Origin: an uncultured Flavobacteriales bacterium
Lineage (GTDB): Bacteria; Bacteroidota; Bacteroidia; Flavobacteriales_E; Vicingaceae
Length of the DNA: 64,000 bases
Assembly (NCBI GenBank): GCA_905479915.1
Contig: CAJQOH010000015.1
Coordinates: 186,001-250,000 of the forward strand
Direction: 5' to 3'
The translations under genes were made by a program, and so were the position numbers. Positions 50,859-59,297 of this stretch are shown one piece after another. Numbering within the stretch: position 1 is the first letter of the stretch; each line of letters begins with the position of its first letter. The notes beneath the pieces were generated by a model that ran no database searches, had not been told where the DNA came from, and saw only the letters and a program-made list of their open reading frames with translations.

Positions 50859-50996
50859 TTAACCTAAAACTAACAAAGTGATTGCAGAAACCAGTACTAG
50901 TAATGTGGCACTAACAATATAAAATTGTTCCATCAATGAAATCTGACTATTGGTATGAAATATTTTAGCGTAAGTATATCGAATAACTCTTTCCAT
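50859..50996 (-). CDS. Small single-pass membrane protein, coupled to the STAS-like gene
   Basis: A 45-residue reading frame. It begins MERVIRYTYAKIFHTNSQIS and has one C-terminal hydrophobic helix (FYIVSATLLVLVSAITLLVL). Its ATG overlaps the stop of the upstream 80-residue gene (TAATG), and GGAGGG lies just before, an unusually good Shine-Dalgarno match for this phylum, though it also encodes Gly-Gly. It fills the otherwise empty gap before the aminotransferase gene. Reality as a gene is likely but unproven; function unknown. Confidence 0.5.
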   Translation of the reverse strand: MERVIRYTYAKIFHTNSQISLMEQFYIVSATLLVLVSAITLLVLG

Positions 50997-51238
50997 TACC
51001 CTCCAATAATTGCAACAGGAAAGTTACTATCAATACAAAGAACTCGATTAAAAAATTCTGATGCACTTCTATTTACCCTTGGCGTATTTTCAAATTCAAT
51101 AATTACTGAATTTGCTTTATTCTGAGCAATCATCCTTCTTGCTTTAACAATCAATTCTTTCGCTTTATCTACCGTAATCTTTTCATTTTTAGAAATGAAT
51201 ACTCTTACTTCAAAATTGTTGCACCTTAAACTTGTCAT
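50996..51238 (-). CDS. Small STAS-like protein (copy A)
   Basis: An 80-residue cytosolic protein with a beta-alpha-beta-alpha-beta pattern: FEVRVFISKNEKITVDKAKEL, SVIIEFENTPRVNRSASEFF, FPVAIIGG. The middle strand followed by a helix starting at the Ser-rich turn resembles STAS/anti-sigma-antagonist folds. It is about 75% identical by eye to the 80-residue gene at 56118. It begins seven bases after the stop of a T9SS cargo gene and is followed by the coupled membrane peptide. No partner kinase is seen. Confidence 0.75.
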   Translation of the reverse strand: MTSLRCNNFEVRVFISKNEKITVDKAKELIVKARRMIAQNKANSVIIEFENTPRVNRSASEFFNRVLCIDSNFPVAIIGG

Positions 51239-51245
51239 TCTATAC

Positions 51246-54155
51246 TTATTTCATTTTAATTATTTGATCTACTAATTGTGTTCTTTCATTAAACACTTTT
51301 ACAAAGTAGGTTCCAATTGGCAATTGTTTATCCAAAACTATTTCTGCCGAGTTTGCTGCTATAGTTTGAATATGAACTCTCCTCCCTAAATAATCTATAA
51401 CCTCAACAGTAAATACCTGATTTACAAAGTTATCTGACAATTGTAATCTAAAGTTATTTTTAAAAGGATTAGGATAAACACTAATATCTCTTGCTTGATC
51501 ACAGGTAATTGATCTGATACCGTGATATTGAAATTTACCATCAAAATCAGTTTGTTTTAAACGGTAATAAACCGTTCCATTAATTGGGTTATCGTCAGTC
51601 CAACTGTAATTAATTGATGTAGAACTGTTTCCATTTCCTTCTACATTACCAATAGGGTTAAACCCAACACCATCAATACTTCTCTCAATTGTAAAATAAT
51701 CATTATTGATTTCTGAGATTGTTTCCCATGTCAATTCAGGTAACTCGTTTTGACAATCCACATCAAATTGCACTAACTCTACCGGCAAAGGAGTTAAAAC
51801 ATTTATAGAAGCAAGCGTAACATAACGTGTACTATTGTTGGCAATATGAGTAGGAGATATTCCAGAAATAGTAACTACTGGATTGTTGTAAGTGATAACT
51901 ATTCCTGTTCCGTCCCCATTGTAATAACATGTAGTTCCTCCATTAGCAAAATTTCCATCTGTATCAACTAACAGTCTTAAATGTGCAACATTCACTGACC
52001 CTGGATTCGCTCCTGTTGATAAAGTCATATCCCAACTAAAATCTTCTGCAATATTTGTTTTGGTTACTTTCCATTCCCTTTCTAATCTATAAGCCAAGGA
52101 ACATCCAGTTAATCCGGTAGGAATTTCTGCATTTGCTGAAGTAGAATTCCTCATTGCTCCTTGATTGTCTCCAACCAACATGTAAGATACATCAGAAGCA
52201 AAGCTCCCTGTATTAGCAGCATTAGTTGCTTGTAAAGTATTTAAATAAACTCTAGATACATCATCTGTAGTATGTGATTGCTTCTGAAGTAAAGATTGAT
52301 TATCGTCTCTTCCTATTCCAATAACATTGTTATGATAACTTGCATTGTCATCTGCGTCCCAAATAGGAGTGGAATAAGAAGCTGTATAATCTCCAGCTGT
52401 AGTACCAGCAGAATTATCCAATGTAATTCCATATTTTACAGCAAAATAAGATTCTACCCTATTTTTATCTGTAGCTCCATGAGAAGCGTCATAAATCGCA
52501 AGCTCTCCAAAAAGAACAGAGCCTGGCCATCCATGATTATGAAGTTTCCCGAATGTGATAGGTGATGCTACTGTCCCAGAAGGTGAAGTAACTGTTGTTC
52601 CATTTTTATAAGCCCCAGCATTGTAAACATTCAAACTCGTTCCACTTGCAATACTTGAAACTAACTGTTGCTCTGTATTACCACTACCGACCCCTGTGCT
52701 TACAGGATTCCCACCATTTTTGTCATAATAAGAACTTCCTGGTGATAAAGTAATTTTACCACTAGATCCAGCATCATCCCATGTAAAATTAGTTCCAGCA
52801 CCACTAATATGTTGCATCACACCATACATAGATATTTTCGAACCATCTGTAAAAGTTGAGAACTGAACGCTTGATGATGACAAAAAATCATCTACTCCAT
52901 CAAACAATATTGCAGGGTTATAATTGAATGAATTGTTGTTATAAATTGGCTGATTTCCTGCTGTTGAATGCGAGACATTTGGAATTGACGCATTACTAGA
53001 TTGTTCATTCCATTGTTGAACAGTTCCACTATTTACTGCCGCAGTTACCCCTGCATCAGAATACACTCCTGCATCAGATTTAAACCAAATTGTCATATCT
53101 GATGAAACACTTCCTGGAGATGGGCTACAAGCTCCAATTGTTCGGTTACCTCCTGGAGCTGTAACTGTTGGCGTATAGTTTGATCCACCTACTGTTATTT
53201 GGTTACACAATGCATCAATAACATTGCCAATACTAGAACCTGCAGCCATATCATAAGTTACCCAAAAATAATTGGTTCCGCTGCTCAATGTTTGAGTCCC
53301 ATTTACCGATATATTATTACCCGTTGCTAATGGCGTAGCACTACCAAAAAGAGTTGTTGTAGCGAAAGTTGAGCTAGCTCCGGTATAATAAACATTAATG
53401 TTTGTAACATCTGAAAGAGGTAAAGTACTACCATCTGTACGTAGTATAAATTGAGTAATACCTAAAGGACTTAATGAACCAGATGTTACCACTTCAATTC
53501 CAATTACTTCTGCATCAGAAGCACATTTCTCTACTGTTGAAGTGTTTGTTTGAGTAACCGTACTAGAGCTATACGTCATCGCAACTTGATCAACAATATT
53601 GATGTTATCGATTGCTGCATCCCCTGTATAACTGGTACCATAAGCTCCTCTAAAACGAAATTCAACTGTTTGTCCAGCATAAGCAGCTAAACTAACACTT
53701 GCTGTATTCCATACATTACCTTGATCTCCTGCTAATGTCCAAAGAGAAGTCCAAGTAGTTCCATTAGTACTGATTAATAATTCTAATGTTCCCATAGTAG
53801 CTCCATACATATGATAATCAAAACTTATTTCTGGACTTGACAAAGAAGTAAAATCAAAACAATAAGATTCCAACCAAGCTTCATCTCCTCCAACTCTAGG
53901 AGAAGAAGTCTCTATGTACATATACCAAGTAGATGAATTAGAACCTGTACTTGGTCCTGTAGAACCAGATGTTGTACCTGCATCATCTCGAGTCCAATCA
54001 AATTGATCTCCAGCGGCATTGTTCCAATTTCCAAAACCTGATTCAAATCCTTCTGAATAAGGGAAAGTATTAACTGATGTAGCGCAACCTGGAAGCTGAG
54101 CGTTAACTGTCAAAACAGAAACTATTAGGGTAAATAAAATTGTTAAATTCTTCAT
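51246..54155 (-). CDS. Large T9SS-secreted multidomain protein (module A)
   Basis: A 969-residue secreted protein. The start is the ATG at 54155, giving signal peptide MKNLTILFTLIVSVLTVNAQ; a longer frame would add a non-signal segment. A MAM-like jelly roll comes first (EGFESGFGNWN ... EFRFRGAYGTSYTGDAAIDNI), then a BNR-associated-type beta domain (GITQFILRTDGSTLPLSDV), a LamG-like region (WFKSDAGVYSDAG ... LFDGVDDFLSSS), and a YKQTDFDG-type FN3-like domain plus a T9SS sorting domain (ISVYPNPFKNNFRLQLS). The last two domains are nearly identical to those of the 358-residue protein of module B. Confidence 0.87.
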   Translation of the reverse strand: MKNLTILFTLIVSVLTVNAQLPGCATSVNTFPYSEGFESGFGNWNNAAGDQFDWTRDDAGTTSGSTGPSTGSNSSTWYMYIETSSPRVGGDEAWLESYCFDFTSLSSPEISFDYHMYGATMGTLELLISTNGTTWTSLWTLAGDQGNVWNTASVSLAAYAGQTVEFRFRGAYGTSYTGDAAIDNINIVDQVAMTYSSSTVTQTNTSTVEKCASDAEVIGIEVVTSGSLSPLGITQFILRTDGSTLPLSDVTNINVYYTGASSTFATTTLFGSATPLATGNNISVNGTQTLSSGTNYFWVTYDMAAGSSIGNVIDALCNQITVGGSNYTPTVTAPGGNRTIGACSPSPGSVSSDMTIWFKSDAGVYSDAGVTAAVNSGTVQQWNEQSSNASIPNVSHSTAGNQPIYNNNSFNYNPAILFDGVDDFLSSSSVQFSTFTDGSKISMYGVMQHISGAGTNFTWDDAGSSGKITLSPGSSYYDKNGGNPVSTGVGSGNTEQQLVSSIASGTSLNVYNAGAYKNGTTVTSPSGTVASPITFGKLHNHGWPGSVLFGELAIYDASHGATDKNRVESYFAVKYGITLDNSAGTTAGDYTASYSTPIWDADDNASYHNNVIGIGRDDNQSLLQKQSHTTDDVSRVYLNTLQATNAANTGSFASDVSYMLVGDNQGAMRNSTSANAEIPTGLTGCSLAYRLEREWKVTKTNIAEDFSWDMTLSTGANPGSVNVAHLRLLVDTDGNFANGGTTCYYNGDGTGIVITYNNPVVTISGISPTHIANNSTRYVTLASINVLTPLPVELVQFDVDCQNELPELTWETISEINNDYFTIERSIDGVGFNPIGNVEGNGNSSTSINYSWTDDNPINGTVYYRLKQTDFDGKFQYHGIRSITCDQARDISVYPNPFKNNFRLQLSDNFVNQVFTVEVIDYLGRRVHIQTIAANSAEIVLDKQLPIGTYFVKVFNERTQLVDQIIKMK

Positions 54156-54273
54156 TTTGGGTAGAGTTAAATTAAATAAGACAAATGCCTTATCTTCATA
54201 CGCCAAAAATAATATGAGTTTCTATGTCTAAAAAAAATGAAGGGCGACAAGAGGGCGACAATTCGGCAGCCAA

Positions 54274-56019
54274 CTACAACATAGACTTCAAGAATTCAGT
54301 TAAATCATCTTCATACGACAAATTTAACTTTTGCTTCAATCTAGTTTTTGTTTTTTTAACAGAAGTTGTCGCAATATTTTTACTAATAGCTATTTCTTTG
54401 TTAGACATATTCATTACAATCATAGCTGCCAACTTTAAATCCATATCAGTAAGGTTAGGAAATTGAACCGTTAGAGAGTTATAGAATTCTCCACTCAACC
54501 CACCCATTTCTTCTTGAATTTGTGCTCTTGAAGATTTTACATCAAGTTCATTTTGGATAAAAAGTTCCATATTTTTTAATTCAGCCGTAGTTAAACTTCC
54601 TACCTGGTCGAGTTGACGCATTAAATTTGAAGAGAAATCTTGTTTTACTTGAAGTTCATGAGATAATAACTGAACATTCTTACTTTCCTTTTTCACCTTT
54701 AGCCTTAACAATTCTTGTTCATATCTAGCAGCATCCAATCTTGCCTGTTTAATTATAGTCATCTTTGTTTGATTAACTCTATACCTCCAAAAGAAAAACA
54801 ACACCACTCCCATTCCCATAACTAAAGCCATAATCAATAAAAAAAGTTTAAATCGCTTTTTCTCGGCCTCATTTTTCAAAGCAACAAGTTCCTGATCTTT
54901 TAATTGTTTTTCCAATTTCATCTTTTCAGTAACCTGCTTTAAAGAAGTTTCTGCTTGTTGGCTTATCATACTTTTATATGTTTCACCTTGAGATTGATAG
55001 TACTCCTTATTTAAGTCTATCCACAAATTCATATAAATTTTATACGCAGACTCTTTACCTAGCGCTTTATAGACATTCATCAGCTTTTCAACAACTGTCA
55101 ACCTTTCAAGAGGCAGCATATGCTTACCATAATTATCTAATAAGTTATTTAATCGCTTAATTAAAACTGAATAATCTTTTCTTATAAAGTCGATTTCAGC
55201 CAAGGTTATTTCTGCTTTTATAAAAGACTGCTTATACTTATTCATATCACTACCTTCTGAATCTAGCAATAAGTATTCATAAGCCTTTTCATAATTTTCA
55301 ACTTGATAATAACATGAGCCTAAATTTCCCATAATAAAGGCATAATTGGGGAGGTTTAACCCCCTTTTTCGGGCAATTTCTATTGCATTAGAAAAAGCAA
55401 CTATTGCTACATCAAACCTTTTTAAACCTCTTGCAATAATTCCGTGTTGATTGTAAGCTCCTATTAAATTAACTTCACTACCTTCTTTTTTCTGTAATAC
55501 AATCCATTTCTCAGTCATTATTAATGCGCTATCAGACAGTCCAAGCTCTAGGTATAATTTTGCTTTTTGAAAATAAAAATTGCTCTCTTTTTTTTCTTCA
55601 CAAATCATATCCAAATACCTAATCCCCTGTCTATAAGCCTTTAGGATATTCATAAGCTTTGCAAGTTCTATAGAGATATGACCACAGCCGGTACAATTTT
55701 TTACACTCTTGGTTTCTTCACAATGCTCATTGTAGGTTGTAAGTGCTAATTCAAAAGCTTCCTCTTGCCTATTAAAAAGTAATAAGGTATGCACCTTTGT
55801 ATTGATTCCACCAACATTTCCTAATCCATCAGGTTTATCTGTAAAACGAATAAGTTCATCTACATAATAAATAGCAGAATCTTCATTTAGGTTTTCTCTA
55901 TGATAATTAAGCCTTTCATAAATTTCTTCAGTATTATTCCAAATACGTTTTTCTTGTCCAAGTAATAAATTACTAGACATCAGAAAAAGTATAACCGTAT
56001 AGACTATTGTTAACCTCAT
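54274..56019 (-). CDS. TPR-membrane-HTH regulator (module A)
   Basis: A 581-residue regulator. Signal peptide (residues 1-21), about eight TPR-like helical repeats outside the cytosol (RGIRYLDMICEEKKESNFYFQ ... ENYEKAYEYLL), a transmembrane helix near residue 372 (LFLLIMALVMGMGVVLFFFW), a cytosolic coiled coil and a C-terminal LuxR-like helix-turn-helix (LTDMDLKLAAMIVMNMSNKE... SVKKTKTRLKQKL). A sensor that passes an outside signal to transcription is likely. The ATG at 56019 is chosen over a TTG at 56031. Target genes are unknown; the adjacent T9SS cargo genes are candidates. Confidence 0.82.
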   Translation of the reverse strand: MRLTIVYTVILFLMSSNLLLGQEKRIWNNTEEIYERLNYHRENLNEDSAIYYVDELIRFTDKPDGLGNVGGINTKVHTLLLFNRQEEAFELALTTYNEHCEETKSVKNCTGCGHISIELAKLMNILKAYRQGIRYLDMICEEKKESNFYFQKAKLYLELGLSDSALIMTEKWIVLQKKEGSEVNLIGAYNQHGIIARGLKRFDVAIVAFSNAIEIARKRGLNLPNYAFIMGNLGSCYYQVENYEKAYEYLLLDSEGSDMNKYKQSFIKAEITLAEIDFIRKDYSVLIKRLNNLLDNYGKHMLPLERLTVVEKLMNVYKALGKESAYKIYMNLWIDLNKEYYQSQGETYKSMISQQAETSLKQVTEKMKLEKQLKDQELVALKNEAEKKRFKLFLLIMALVMGMGVVLFFFWRYRVNQTKMTIIKQARLDAARYEQELLRLKVKKESKNVQLLSHELQVKQDFSSNLMRQLDQVGSLTTAELKNMELFIQNELDVKSSRAQIQEEMGGLSGEFYNSLTVQFPNLTDMDLKLAAMIVMNMSNKEIAISKNIATTSVKKTKTRLKQKLNLSYEDDLTEFLKSML

Positions 56020-56117
56020 AGTTAAGGTCAAATATACAGCTAATTTGGAAAAAAATAATTCAGTTAAAATGGAAGGGGAAATTGAACCGACATGTTATAT
56101 TGAGGAATTACCTCCTA

Positions 56118-56360
56118 CTAACCTCCTATTATTACTACAGGGAAACTACTATCAATACAAAGAACTCGATTGAAAAATTTAAAGGCACTTTTATTAATCC
56201 TTGGTGTATTTTCAAATTCAATAAGTACTGAACTTGCATTATTTTGAGCAATCATCCGTCTTGCTTTAAGGATCAACCCTTTTGTCTTATCGATCGTAAT
56301 TTTTTCATTTTTAGAAATAAATACTTTTACTACAAAATCATTGCATCTTAAACTTGTCAT
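56118..56360 (-). CDS. Small STAS-like protein (copy B)
   Basis: An 80-residue paralogue of the gene at 50996. The same pattern FVVKVFISKNEKITIDKTKGL, SVLIEFENTPRINKSAFKFF, FPVVIIGG is kept. It starts eight bases after the stop of the module B secreted protein. After its stop the minus strand reads AGGAGGTTAGTAGGAGGT, with two Shine-Dalgarno-like motifs but no coupled membrane peptide as in module A. Function unknown. Confidence 0.75.
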   Translation of the reverse strand: MTSLRCNDFVVKVFISKNEKITIDKTKGLILKARRMIAQNNASSVLIEFENTPRINKSAFKFFNRVLCIDSSFPVVIIGG

Positions 56361-56368
56361 TTTTTTAC

Positions 56369-57445
56369 CTATTTCATTTTATTGATTCGTTCTATTGATT
56401 GCATTGTTTCGTTAAACACTTTAACAAAGTAAGTTCCTATTGGTAATTGTTCGTCCAAAACTATTTCTACAGAACTTGATTCAATTTTTTGAGTATGCAC
56501 TTGTCTACCTAAACAATCAATTACCTCAACATTTAAAGACTGTGAAATCGAATTATCAGACAATTGAAGCTTAAAACTATTCTTAAAAGGATTTGGGTAA
56601 ATACTAAAATCACTCCCTTTACTACAAGTAATTGATCTAACACCGTGGTACTCAAATTGACCATCAAAATCAGTTTGTTTTAAACGGTAATAAACTGTTC
56701 CATTAAGCGGGTTATCATCGGTCCAGCTATAATTAATAGGTGTAGAACTATTTCCATTTCCTTCTGTAGTGCCAACCGATTCAAAATTCACTCCATCAAG
56801 ACTCCTCTCTATTGTAAAAAAATCATTATTGATTTCTGATTGTGTCCCCCAATTGAGCTGAACATTTCCATTGTTACAATTTGCTTCAAAAGAAGTTAAC
56901 GTTACAGGAAGTGGTATAACATAATATATTTCATAAAGATCATCATAATTAGAAGTAGTCGTTCCAGTATTTGCTGAACGGTTATTCCATGAGTGACCTC
57001 CAGGTTCTGTATCAATAGCTGCTGCATGTTCATTCATTACATAAGCATAAATACCACCTATTGCTCCTCCTGGAAAGTAGATTTCATAAGTATATTGATC
57101 TCCAGGAGAAATACTTACGTTAGAGCTTAAATTATAGGTGTTAGCCCCTCTATTCACTGTTATATTCTCAGGGCCATAGATTACACCTCCTGACATACCA
57201 TTACCACTATAGATACGCAACTCGGCAGAGAAACCATCATTAGCACTTATGTTTGCCATATGAACAACTAATTGATTCATACAACAATAACCATAACTAA
57301 CAGGTACAGTAAAACTTTGGCCAAGACTATACTTCCTCCAGTTTCCAGAAACGTTTGAGCTAGGCTGGTGATTAATAACCGTGGCTATTTGAGCCAAACA
57401 AAACATCGGTGCAATAAGCACTATTAATAACAATATCTTTTTCAT
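56369..57445 (-). CDS. T9SS-secreted protein (module B)
   Basis: A 358-residue secreted protein. Signal peptide 1-19 (ending CLAQ). Residues 20-175 form an unrecognised beta domain (YSLGQSFTVPVSYGYCCMNQ ... GDQYTYEIYFPGG). Residues 178-280 form an FN3-like unit (LTSFEANCNNGNVQLNWGTQ, SWTDDNPLNGTVYYRLKQTD), and the end is a T9SS sorting domain (FSIYPNPFKNSFKLQLSDN). The last 180 residues are very close to the C-terminus of the module A protein. It is divergent from the second TPR-HTH regulator, with an inverted repeat between them. Confidence 0.85.
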   Translation of the reverse strand: MKKILLLIVLIAPMFCLAQIATVINHQPSSNVSGNWRKYSLGQSFTVPVSYGYCCMNQLVVHMANISANDGFSAELRIYSGNGMSGGVIYGPENITVNRGANTYNLSSNVSISPGDQYTYEIYFPGGAIGGIYAYVMNEHAAAIDTEPGGHSWNNRSANTGTTTSNYDDLYEIYYVIPLPVTLTSFEANCNNGNVQLNWGTQSEINNDFFTIERSLDGVNFESVGTTEGNGNSSTPINYSWTDDNPLNGTVYYRLKQTDFDGQFEYHGVRSITCSKGSDFSIYPNPFKNSFKLQLSDNSISQSLNVEVIDCLGRQVHTQKIESSSVEIVLDEQLPIGTYFVKVFNETMQSIERINKMK

Positions 57446-57472
57446 ATCAACACAGTTTAATATTAATGCAAA

Positions 57473-57493
57473 TTTGATCTCATTATGATCAAA
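57473..57493. promoter_or_regulatory. Inverted repeat between module B cargo and regulator genes
   Basis: TTTGATC (57473-57479) and GATCAAA (57487-57493) are exact complements around seven bases. It lies 28 bases upstream of the secreted-protein ATG in the 223-base divergent gap. It could be an operator for the neighbouring HTH regulator. The rest of the gap is AT-rich with no other structure seen. Confidence 0.3.
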
Positions 57494-57668
57494 ATAGAAA
57501 CATCAATACCCTACAATATCTCTACAAAGAGCATTATCAATAAGACAACTTCTCTACATAATATTAATTTAATCGCTGATAAACAGATAGATACATTTAA
57601 TTTTATATCTACAGATAGCAAATAACATCCCTAAAGATGCTTACTTTCACATCAATAAATTTTTTGTC

Positions 57669-59297
57669 ATGATAAACAAATGGTTATTTTTAATCTTAGG
57701 TAGTATAGCTATACTACCTTCAAAAGCACAACCAACAGGATCATCTTACTTGAGGGATCTACAGGTATTTGATTCTATAAATACCTCTATACCCTATTTA
57801 ATTTCTGCCAACAAAAGTCATATTGAGGCTAATTATGAAGCAGCTATCTTAGAATTAGAAAAAGGAATAAAAACTTCTTTAATACAAAAAGACTCTATCG
57901 CACTGCTTTGTGCATACAAACAATTAGGAAACAATTATAAAAGGCTCGGTTTATTTGATCAGACATTAGATAATTATACCAAAGGATTAGAATTGAGTAA
58001 AAAACTTCAATCTCAAGCACACATCACGTCTTTTTCTAACTCTATTGGCATATACTTTTTTGTAATAGGAGATATTAAAACTGCTGAAAAGTATTACTTA
58101 AAGGCCCTAAAGACTAGAGAATATTATAATGATAAGATTGGCCTGATAAGCTCATATAATAATGTTGGTGTAATTAATAAAGTACATAAAAATCCAAAAG
58201 AAGCTTTAAACTACTATTTCAAATCTCTAGCAATTATTAAATCTGAGAAATTAGATTCTTCAAAATACATACACATCTTTAGCAACATTGGCAATGCTTA
58301 CAAAGATTTACTCAATTACGATAAAGCAAGAAATTATTTAAATCAAGCATATCAAATTAGTTTAGCTTCAGGATCTAAATACTATCAAGCTTCAAGCTTA
58401 CACAATCTTGGATCCTCCTACCAACATGAAAAGAATCCTAAAAAGGCGATAGCGTTTCTTCTTCGTTCCTACAAAATTAGCGAGAGTATTCAAACTCCAA
58501 AATTGATAATGAAATCAAGTGAAGAGCTGAGTCAAGCTTATGAAGCAGAAGGAGATCTTAAAAATGCATTAATGTATGCCCAACAGCACTTTAAACTAAA
58601 AGAAGAAATGCTAGAGCAAAAGCTGAATAAGAAGTTCGCTTTTATGCAAGTTAAATATGAATCATCTGAAAAAGATAAAAAAATAGCAATTCTCGAAAAC
58701 CAGACCGCATTAGAAGAATTTAAACTTAAAATGCTAATAATTGGTATCGTACTTCTTCTAGTGTCGGGTATTGTTACAATTAATAGACAGCGTAAATTAA
58801 TCAAGAAAGAAAAACAATTGTTACAACTAGAAATTAACTCAAAAAATCAACTAGAAAACGAACTGGATTATAAGACCAATGAATTAACCAACTTTGCACT
58901 ACATATTGCTCAGAGAAACGATTTTATAAGGGACGTAAAATCTGACTTAGTAAAGGTTTCTTCCTCTATTAGTGACACTATTCCATTTGAGAGAACAAAA
59001 AAAATATTGGTAAAGCTAAATCAGTTTGCCAATAACAGTAAGGATTTAGAGCATTTTAACAAAAAGCTAGAGAACATTAATCATGATTTTATTAAACGAT
59101 TAAAAAAGAATTTTAGCAACCTTACAGAAAATGAACTGCAATTATGTATTTACTTGAGGCTGCGCTTATCTTCTAAAGAAATTGCAAGTATTACAAATAT
59201 TACGTCAAAATCTGTAGACATGAACAGGTACAGGCTTCGTAAAAAATTAAACCTCAATGAAAAAATTGATTTTTATACTTACATACAGAACGTCTAA
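57669..59297 (+). CDS. TPR-membrane-HTH regulator (module B)
   Basis: A 542-residue regulator with the same layout as the module A regulator. Signal peptide 1-20, TPR repeats (YEAAILELEKGIKTSL, NYKRLGLFDQTLDNYTKGLE, AEKYYLKALKTREYYNDK and more), one transmembrane helix (LKMLIIGIVLLLVSGIVTI), coiled coil, and a C-terminal HTH (LTENELQLCIYLRLRLSSKE... SVDMNRYRLRKKL). It is divergent from the module B secreted protein, so regulation of that gene is plausible. Confidence 0.83.
   Translation: MINKWLFLILGSIAILPSKAQPTGSSYLRDLQVFDSINTSIPYLISANKSHIEANYEAAILELEKGIKTSLIQKDSIALLCAYKQLGNNYKRLGLFDQTLDNYTKGLELSKKLQSQAHITSFSNSIGIYFFVIGDIKTAEKYYLKALKTREYYNDKIGLISSYNNVGVINKVHKNPKEALNYYFKSLAIIKSEKLDSSKYIHIFSNIGNAYKDLLNYDKARNYLNQAYQISLASGSKYYQASSLHNLGSSYQHEKNPKKAIAFLLRSYKISESIQTPKLIMKSSEELSQAYEAEGDLKNALMYAQQHFKLKEEMLEQKLNKKFAFMQVKYESSEKDKKIAILENQTALEEFKLKMLIIGIVLLLVSGIVTINRQRKLIKKEKQLLQLEINSKNQLENELDYKTNELTNFALHIAQRNDFIRDVKSDLVKVSSSISDTIPFERTKKILVKLNQFANNSKDLEHFNKKLENINHDFIKRLKKNFSNLTENELQLCIYLRLRLSSKEIASITNITSKSVDMNRYRLRKKLNLNEKIDFYTYIQNV

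Follow-up and report, generated by a model that had tools for sequence, protein, structure and literature searches.

Small STAS-like and single-transmembrane protein genes trailing particular type IX secretion cargo genes in a Flavobacteriales family

A minority of the cargo genes for the type IX secretion system (T9SS) examined here carry, closely behind them and on the same strand, a gene for a single-transmembrane microprotein (TM protein), a gene for a soluble STAS-like protein of about 80 aa, or both. We propose that these small genes form a cassette of cargo-dedicated microproteins that are coupled to particular T9SS cargoes and act at the inner membrane. We give this reading a probability of about 45%; its functional part is one that we infer from gene arrangement and predicted protein features. 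The arrangement suggests that particular secreted proteins have a helper or control device of their own, of a kind not described before. If so, dedicated proteins in the cytosol or inner membrane would control or handle some cargoes before they reach the periplasm.

Two gene sets in the window

We analysed a 64,000-nt stretch of DNA (the window), in which positions 50859-59297 hold two adjacent gene sets, A and B. All of the listed genes are present as open reading frames (Table 1). Set A reads from regulator A through cargo A and STAS A to TM A on the minus strand, with the regulator directly upstream of the cargo gene. Set B has cargo B followed by STAS B on the minus strand, and its regulator is divergent on the plus strand. 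Cargo A measures 986 aa from a TTG start and 969 aa from an inner ATG. The distance from the cargo stop to the 80-aa gene is 7 nt in set A and 8 nt in set B, exactly as the original prediction had stated.

Table 1. Genes of sets A and B, with positions in the window
Feature	Coordinates	Strand	Basis
TM A, 45-aa single-transmembrane microprotein	50859..50996	-	ORF and hydrophobicity scan, family membership
STAS-like protein A, 80 aa	50996..51238	-	ORF, predicted STAS fold, 26-copy family
Cargo A, T9SS type A sorting domain, MAM and BNR_assoc_N in front	51246..54206	-	Pfam and NCBIfam above cut-offs
Regulator A: signal-like N-terminus, TPR, one TM, HTH-like C-terminus	54274..56031	-	TPR_12 above cut-off
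STAS-like protein B, 80 aa	56118..56360	-	ORF; 80% identical to A
Cargo B, 358 aa, T9SS type A sorting domain	56369..57445	-	Pfam, NCBIfam
Regulator B: TPR, TM, HTH-like	57669..59297	+	TPR above cut-off, GerE below cut-off

The gene for TM A lies within these coordinates and was not named in the original prediction; position 50859 is the last base of its stop codon. Its ATG shares one base with the stop codon of STAS A (TAATG). The N-terminal half of the encoded protein is charged and rich in aromatic residues, a single hydrophobic stretch is present, and the sequence aligns with small open reading frames behind other STAS copies. Set B has no counterpart of this gene.

Both cargo proteins are T9SS cargo by the Por_Secre_tail criterion, a score above the curated cut-off. 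TIGR04183 scores 39.0 bits for cargo A and 35.7 bits for cargo B (cut-off 23), and PF18962 scores 36.9 and 44.6 bits (cut-off 27). In a local protein alignment the two match over their last 226 aa only, at 60% identity. Two DNA repeats, one of 300 nt at 75% identity (D1) and one of 243 nt at 84% (D2), span the C-terminal sorting domain (CTD) and the 80-aa gene. The front of cargo B has no Pfam match. The two cargoes had been described as sharing FN3/T9SS ends behind different fronts: the shared T9SS end and the differing fronts are borne out, but the FN3 label found no Pfam hit.

The two sets are adjacent and alike at their 3' ends, as would be expected from a local duplication of no wider significance. 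They are not simple duplicates, however, because their regulators share only 22% identity and belong to different subfamilies. The earlier description of a duplicated module thus holds for the cargo ends and the 80-aa genes, but not for the regulators or for the 45-aa gene, which is confined to set A. The linkage is also seen at many other, unlinked loci and beyond the genus (below), which refutes local duplication as a sufficient account and leaves it barely credible.

Predicted fold of the STAS-like family

We took a beta-beta-alpha-beta-alpha-beta domain matching solved STAS structures as the mark of a STAS fold. AlphaFold2, run on six sequences, returned a model of the 80-aa protein with a pLDDT of 77.6 and the secondary-structure order E E H E H E. 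A Foldseek search with this model ranked Bacillus subtilis RsbS second (TM-score 0.70, E 6.7e-3) among crotonase-fold chains. We preferred STAS to a crotonase fold, since the crotonase matches cover a fragment of a larger protein. VIA-align placed RsfB (Z 8.1), RsbS (8.0) and SpoIIAA (7.5) near the top, in a range of 7-8 that some unrelated chains also reach.

Profile comparisons gave weak matches to PF01740 (STAS) in 5 of 20 members (best E 0.044) and to DUF7793 (PF25056), a Pfam family itself of unknown function, in 8 of 20 (best E 8.6e-5; the first member reaches 17.6 bits, below the gathering score of 26). The profile of the 80-aa family in turn picks up a canonical STAS protein with the IDSSG motif in another bacterium (E 1.3e-4). 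The predicted model and these weak profile matches agree with the STAS-like label given earlier, and we assign the 80-aa protein to the STAS fold with moderate confidence.

STAS-fold proteins commonly regulate sigma factors. The main rival to our reading is feedback to transcription: the STAS-like protein, tethered to the membrane by the TM protein, would bind a transcription-controlling partner and so report that the cargo is being translated. This partner could be the TPR-membrane-HTH regulator, through its cytosolic half, or an anti-sigma-like kinase. The sigma-regulating STAS proteins among the top structural matches favour such a role. Against it, the column equivalent to the switch loop (D-S-S-G) holds serine in only 6 of 20 members, the others having N, R, K, G, Y, E, Q or H (alignment A4). 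Because the phosphorylatable serine is not conserved, a switch of the SpoIIAA/RsbV type is not supported, and the protein should not be called an anti-sigma-factor antagonist. Reading the neighbouring open reading frames by eye, we also recognised no RsbW-like kinase beside the sets. SpoIIAA, RsbV and RsbS resemble the 80-aa family in predicted fold and small size, but they are encoded with a sigma factor and a kinase, whereas the 80-aa family is encoded with secreted cargo.

Linkage of the STAS-like family to T9SS cargo genes

We placed 26 copies of the STAS-like family in the GTDB family of the source genome, 8 of them in that genome itself. CTD genes were detected with two profiles, one built from 60 cargoes of the genome and one from 6 type B cargoes. 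For 21 of the 26 copies, a same-strand CTD gene ends no more than 800 nt upstream; the other 5 have none, and among them are the split copy on C54 and the copy next to a PorP/SprF gene that are described below. The association of the 80-residue family with T9SS genes, on which the original prediction depended, therefore extends well beyond the window. The source genome contains at least 130 type A and 64 type B CTD genes, or at least about 194. Set against roughly 2700 genes, a number extrapolated from the window, this gives a chance-neighbour rate of at least about 7% if all CTD genes are counted. Binomial values on the linkage are only indicative because the copies share ancestry.

The cargoes with a cassette carry CTDs of types A and B behind varied front domains (LamG, MAM, subtilase, FG-GAP). 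This diversity indicates that the linkage does not reflect one duplicated cargo. STAS linkage was also found in another genus of the GTDB family (g16). A phylum-wide search with the STAS-like family returned, outside the GTDB family, nothing but one canonical STAS protein. A contig scan with a narrower alignment (A2) found only 4 loci. We discarded matches at C15:81937, C25:105341 and G028:C132 as fragments or chance.

Most comparison genomes, one per species, are drafts broken into many contigs, and some are "Flavobacteriales bacterium" MAGs. Some cassette copies are frameshifted or split. CTD fragments occupy bases 5-136 of contigs C45 and C56 of the source genome with identical coordinates and scores; this suggests that near-identical cargo ends broke the assembly there, so that cassette copy number in this genome is possibly underestimated. 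An apparently split STAS copy lies behind a type B cargo gene on contig C54 (L013:349-1945). A piece like the first 18 residues (MIRLLIIDNNVLRVVLYK) opens a frame at 1945, the rest is at 349-609, and an unclassified 439-aa frame separates the two parts.

One STAS copy (L015:7609-7848) sits between genes for a PorE/CHU_0125-like OmpA protein and a PorP/SprF protein. A gene for a 96-aa protein (L041:12300-12590) occupies the same place between PorE/OmpA-like and PorP/SprF-like genes, and its product may be a very divergent relative of that STAS copy.

The single-transmembrane microprotein family

The TM family is commoner than the STAS-like family, and its members measure 43-52 aa. We searched 46 genomes. 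Fourteen of them belong to the window's genus, and 12 of these contain one or more matches at E below 1e-6. For 40 of 47 examined copies a T9SS CTD gene ends within 800 nt upstream, and 7 have none. The gap between cargo and TM gene is within 30 nt in 22 of those 40, and many gaps are 1-5 nt.

The TM gene is found with or without a STAS gene, and gene order varies: cargo-STAS-TM in set A and at C71, cargo-TM-STAS at C19, and cargo-TM alone at C45 and C53. STAS and TM genes adjoin in set A and at C71, C19, G028, G016, G026, G027, G025 and G021. TM linkage extends to other genera of the GTDB family (g6 and g16); the arrangement in two genera outside the window's own (L165 and L166) comes with weak profile scores. 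A class-wide search gave convincing matches only inside the GTDB family (G012 and G045). The other class-wide matches that we read lay inside larger proteins or lacked an upstream CTD gene, and we set them aside.

The TM protein matched no family in Pfam or NCBIfam. One of 36 members matched Cap15_TM at E 9e-4, which we took as a chance match between hydrophobic sequences. A short, hydrophobic and unclassified protein of this kind could belong to some other membrane-active pair, such as a toxin and its antidote or a local stress protein, that uses a cargo promoter. We judge this very unlikely: the TM gene often occurs without a STAS gene, and the genes it is linked to are those of T9SS cargo, not mobile or defence genes.

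As a control we inspected 60 other CTD genes of the source genome. None is followed by a member of the STAS-like or TM family, and only 2 have any open reading frame of up to 100 aa within 30 nt, neither belonging to either family. The cassette is thus a feature of a minority of cargoes. It accompanies roughly 10 of the at least about 194 cargoes of the genome, and since about 95% do without it, T9SS export does not generally require it.

Most tested pairs of the small genes have a low dN/dS. STAS-like proteins A and B show a dN/dS of 0.14, which indicates that both are kept as proteins, and the STAS pairs tested span 0.14-0.30. Among TM pairs, three of four lie at 0.15-0.39 (0.15 for TM A against the C45 copy) and one reaches 0.83. 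These values bear on a conservative rival, passive spread, in which the 3' end of a cargo gene (the CTD and the small genes) would travel by recombination and the small genes would have no function tied to the cargo. The similar block shared by sets A and B, which is CTD plus STAS gene behind different fronts, is what passive spread would produce. The identical CTD fragments at two contig starts, the broken copies and the TM pair at 0.83 point the same way. On the other hand, dN/dS is low in most tested pairs, and the link persists, with its short spacing, in highly divergent copies, with both CTD types and in other genera. We therefore regard passive spread as quite unlikely.

TPR-membrane-HTH regulators

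Both regulators exceed the TPR_12 cut-off of 30.1 bits (36.1 and 114.9 bits), and each scores 21.9 bits for the GerE (LuxR) HTH, whose cut-off is 23.5. A profile of the C-terminal 255 positions identified 9 members of the regulator A type in the source genome. Six of the nine lie upstream of a T9SS cargo gene: five have a same-strand CTD gene within 200 nt, and the sixth, on C54, is separated by 777 nt from a type B cargo set. The same type also lies beside STAS sets in G016 and G027. A regulator had been predicted beside each set; this link is real for the regulator A subfamily, but A and B do not form a duplicated pair. In G016, next to the same aminotransferase gene, we found a divergent regulator, a LamG cargo and a 45%-identical STAS protein. 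To judge from these genes, this is a locus where the architecture is kept and the cargo exchanged.

The association of regulator A with cargo and STAS genes adds to the case for transcriptional feedback. Within the stretches examined, however, not every cassette has a regulator; most TM cassettes show none there, and many have no STAS gene. We regard feedback as somewhat unlikely.

Proposed mechanism and comparison with known systems

For our preferred reading, cargo-dedicated microproteins, we propose the following sequence of events. The cargo and small genes would be co-transcribed. Tight spacing and overlapping codons suggest coupled translation, by which the small proteins would be made only once translation of the cargo message is complete, and close to the site where the cargo enters the inner membrane. 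A soluble STAS-like protein encoded with a single-transmembrane protein suggests a unit at the cytoplasmic face of the inner membrane, where the TM protein, in its presumed topology, may anchor or partner the STAS-like protein. Together they could act on the production of their own cargo or on its hand-over, be it during Sec export, on entry into the periplasm or at the PorLM side of the T9SS. Some sets would be governed by the membrane TPR-HTH regulator encoded just upstream.

A more specific version, which we consider possible but somewhat doubtful, is that the translationally coupled STAS-like and TM proteins form a checkpoint for their own cargo on the cytoplasmic side of the secretion process, where they gate or report its export. 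The per-cargo type IX accessory proteins that we know of act at the outer membrane (SprF-type shuttles). To our knowledge, such a checkpoint would be the first accessory factor of the cytosol or inner membrane to be encoded per T9SS cargo.

These shuttles are the closest precedent, as they too are dedicated partners encoded directly behind a T9SS cargo gene. Genes for type B substrates in Flavobacterium johnsoniae are often followed immediately by one for a cognate PorP/SprF shuttle (PMC12618676). Such shuttles serve type B cargo and are outer-membrane proteins about 300 aa long, whereas the cassette proteins have 45-80 aa, show no signal peptide on inspection and mostly follow type A cargo. 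We rejected a PorP/SprF identity for the small proteins on the basis of their size (45 and 80 aa) and the lack of a PF11751 or TIGR03519 match. PorX-type control of T9SS genes (PMC11320123) is similar in that type IX secretion is controlled from the cytosol. The two differ: the cassette has no response regulator and is encoded per cargo, while PorX is encoded once per genome. In the open-licence literature we found no paper that ties T9SS cargo genes to STAS proteins or microproteins, and nothing relevant on DUF7793 and the T9SS.

Other small proteins near the cassettes

Several further small proteins occur near the cassettes. A family of 57-80 aa with the motif WSNFRKxYKL adjoins STAS genes or T9SS cargo genes (L032:3575-3772, L041:7004-7213 and L059:1158-1400; 65-80 aa). 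It has no Pfam match, and L048:1331-1504 may encode a distant member. A putative lipoprotein of 66 aa (HRKGSVIKGxSAK) is common to two relatives near cassettes (L031:6531-6731 and L032:3086-3286). Finally, a second type of single-transmembrane microprotein (PPN[IL]HAxLFW, 41-46 aa) is encoded just upstream of STAS genes at L046 (gap 12) and L162 (gap 4), where it occupies the place of the first TM family in two genera.
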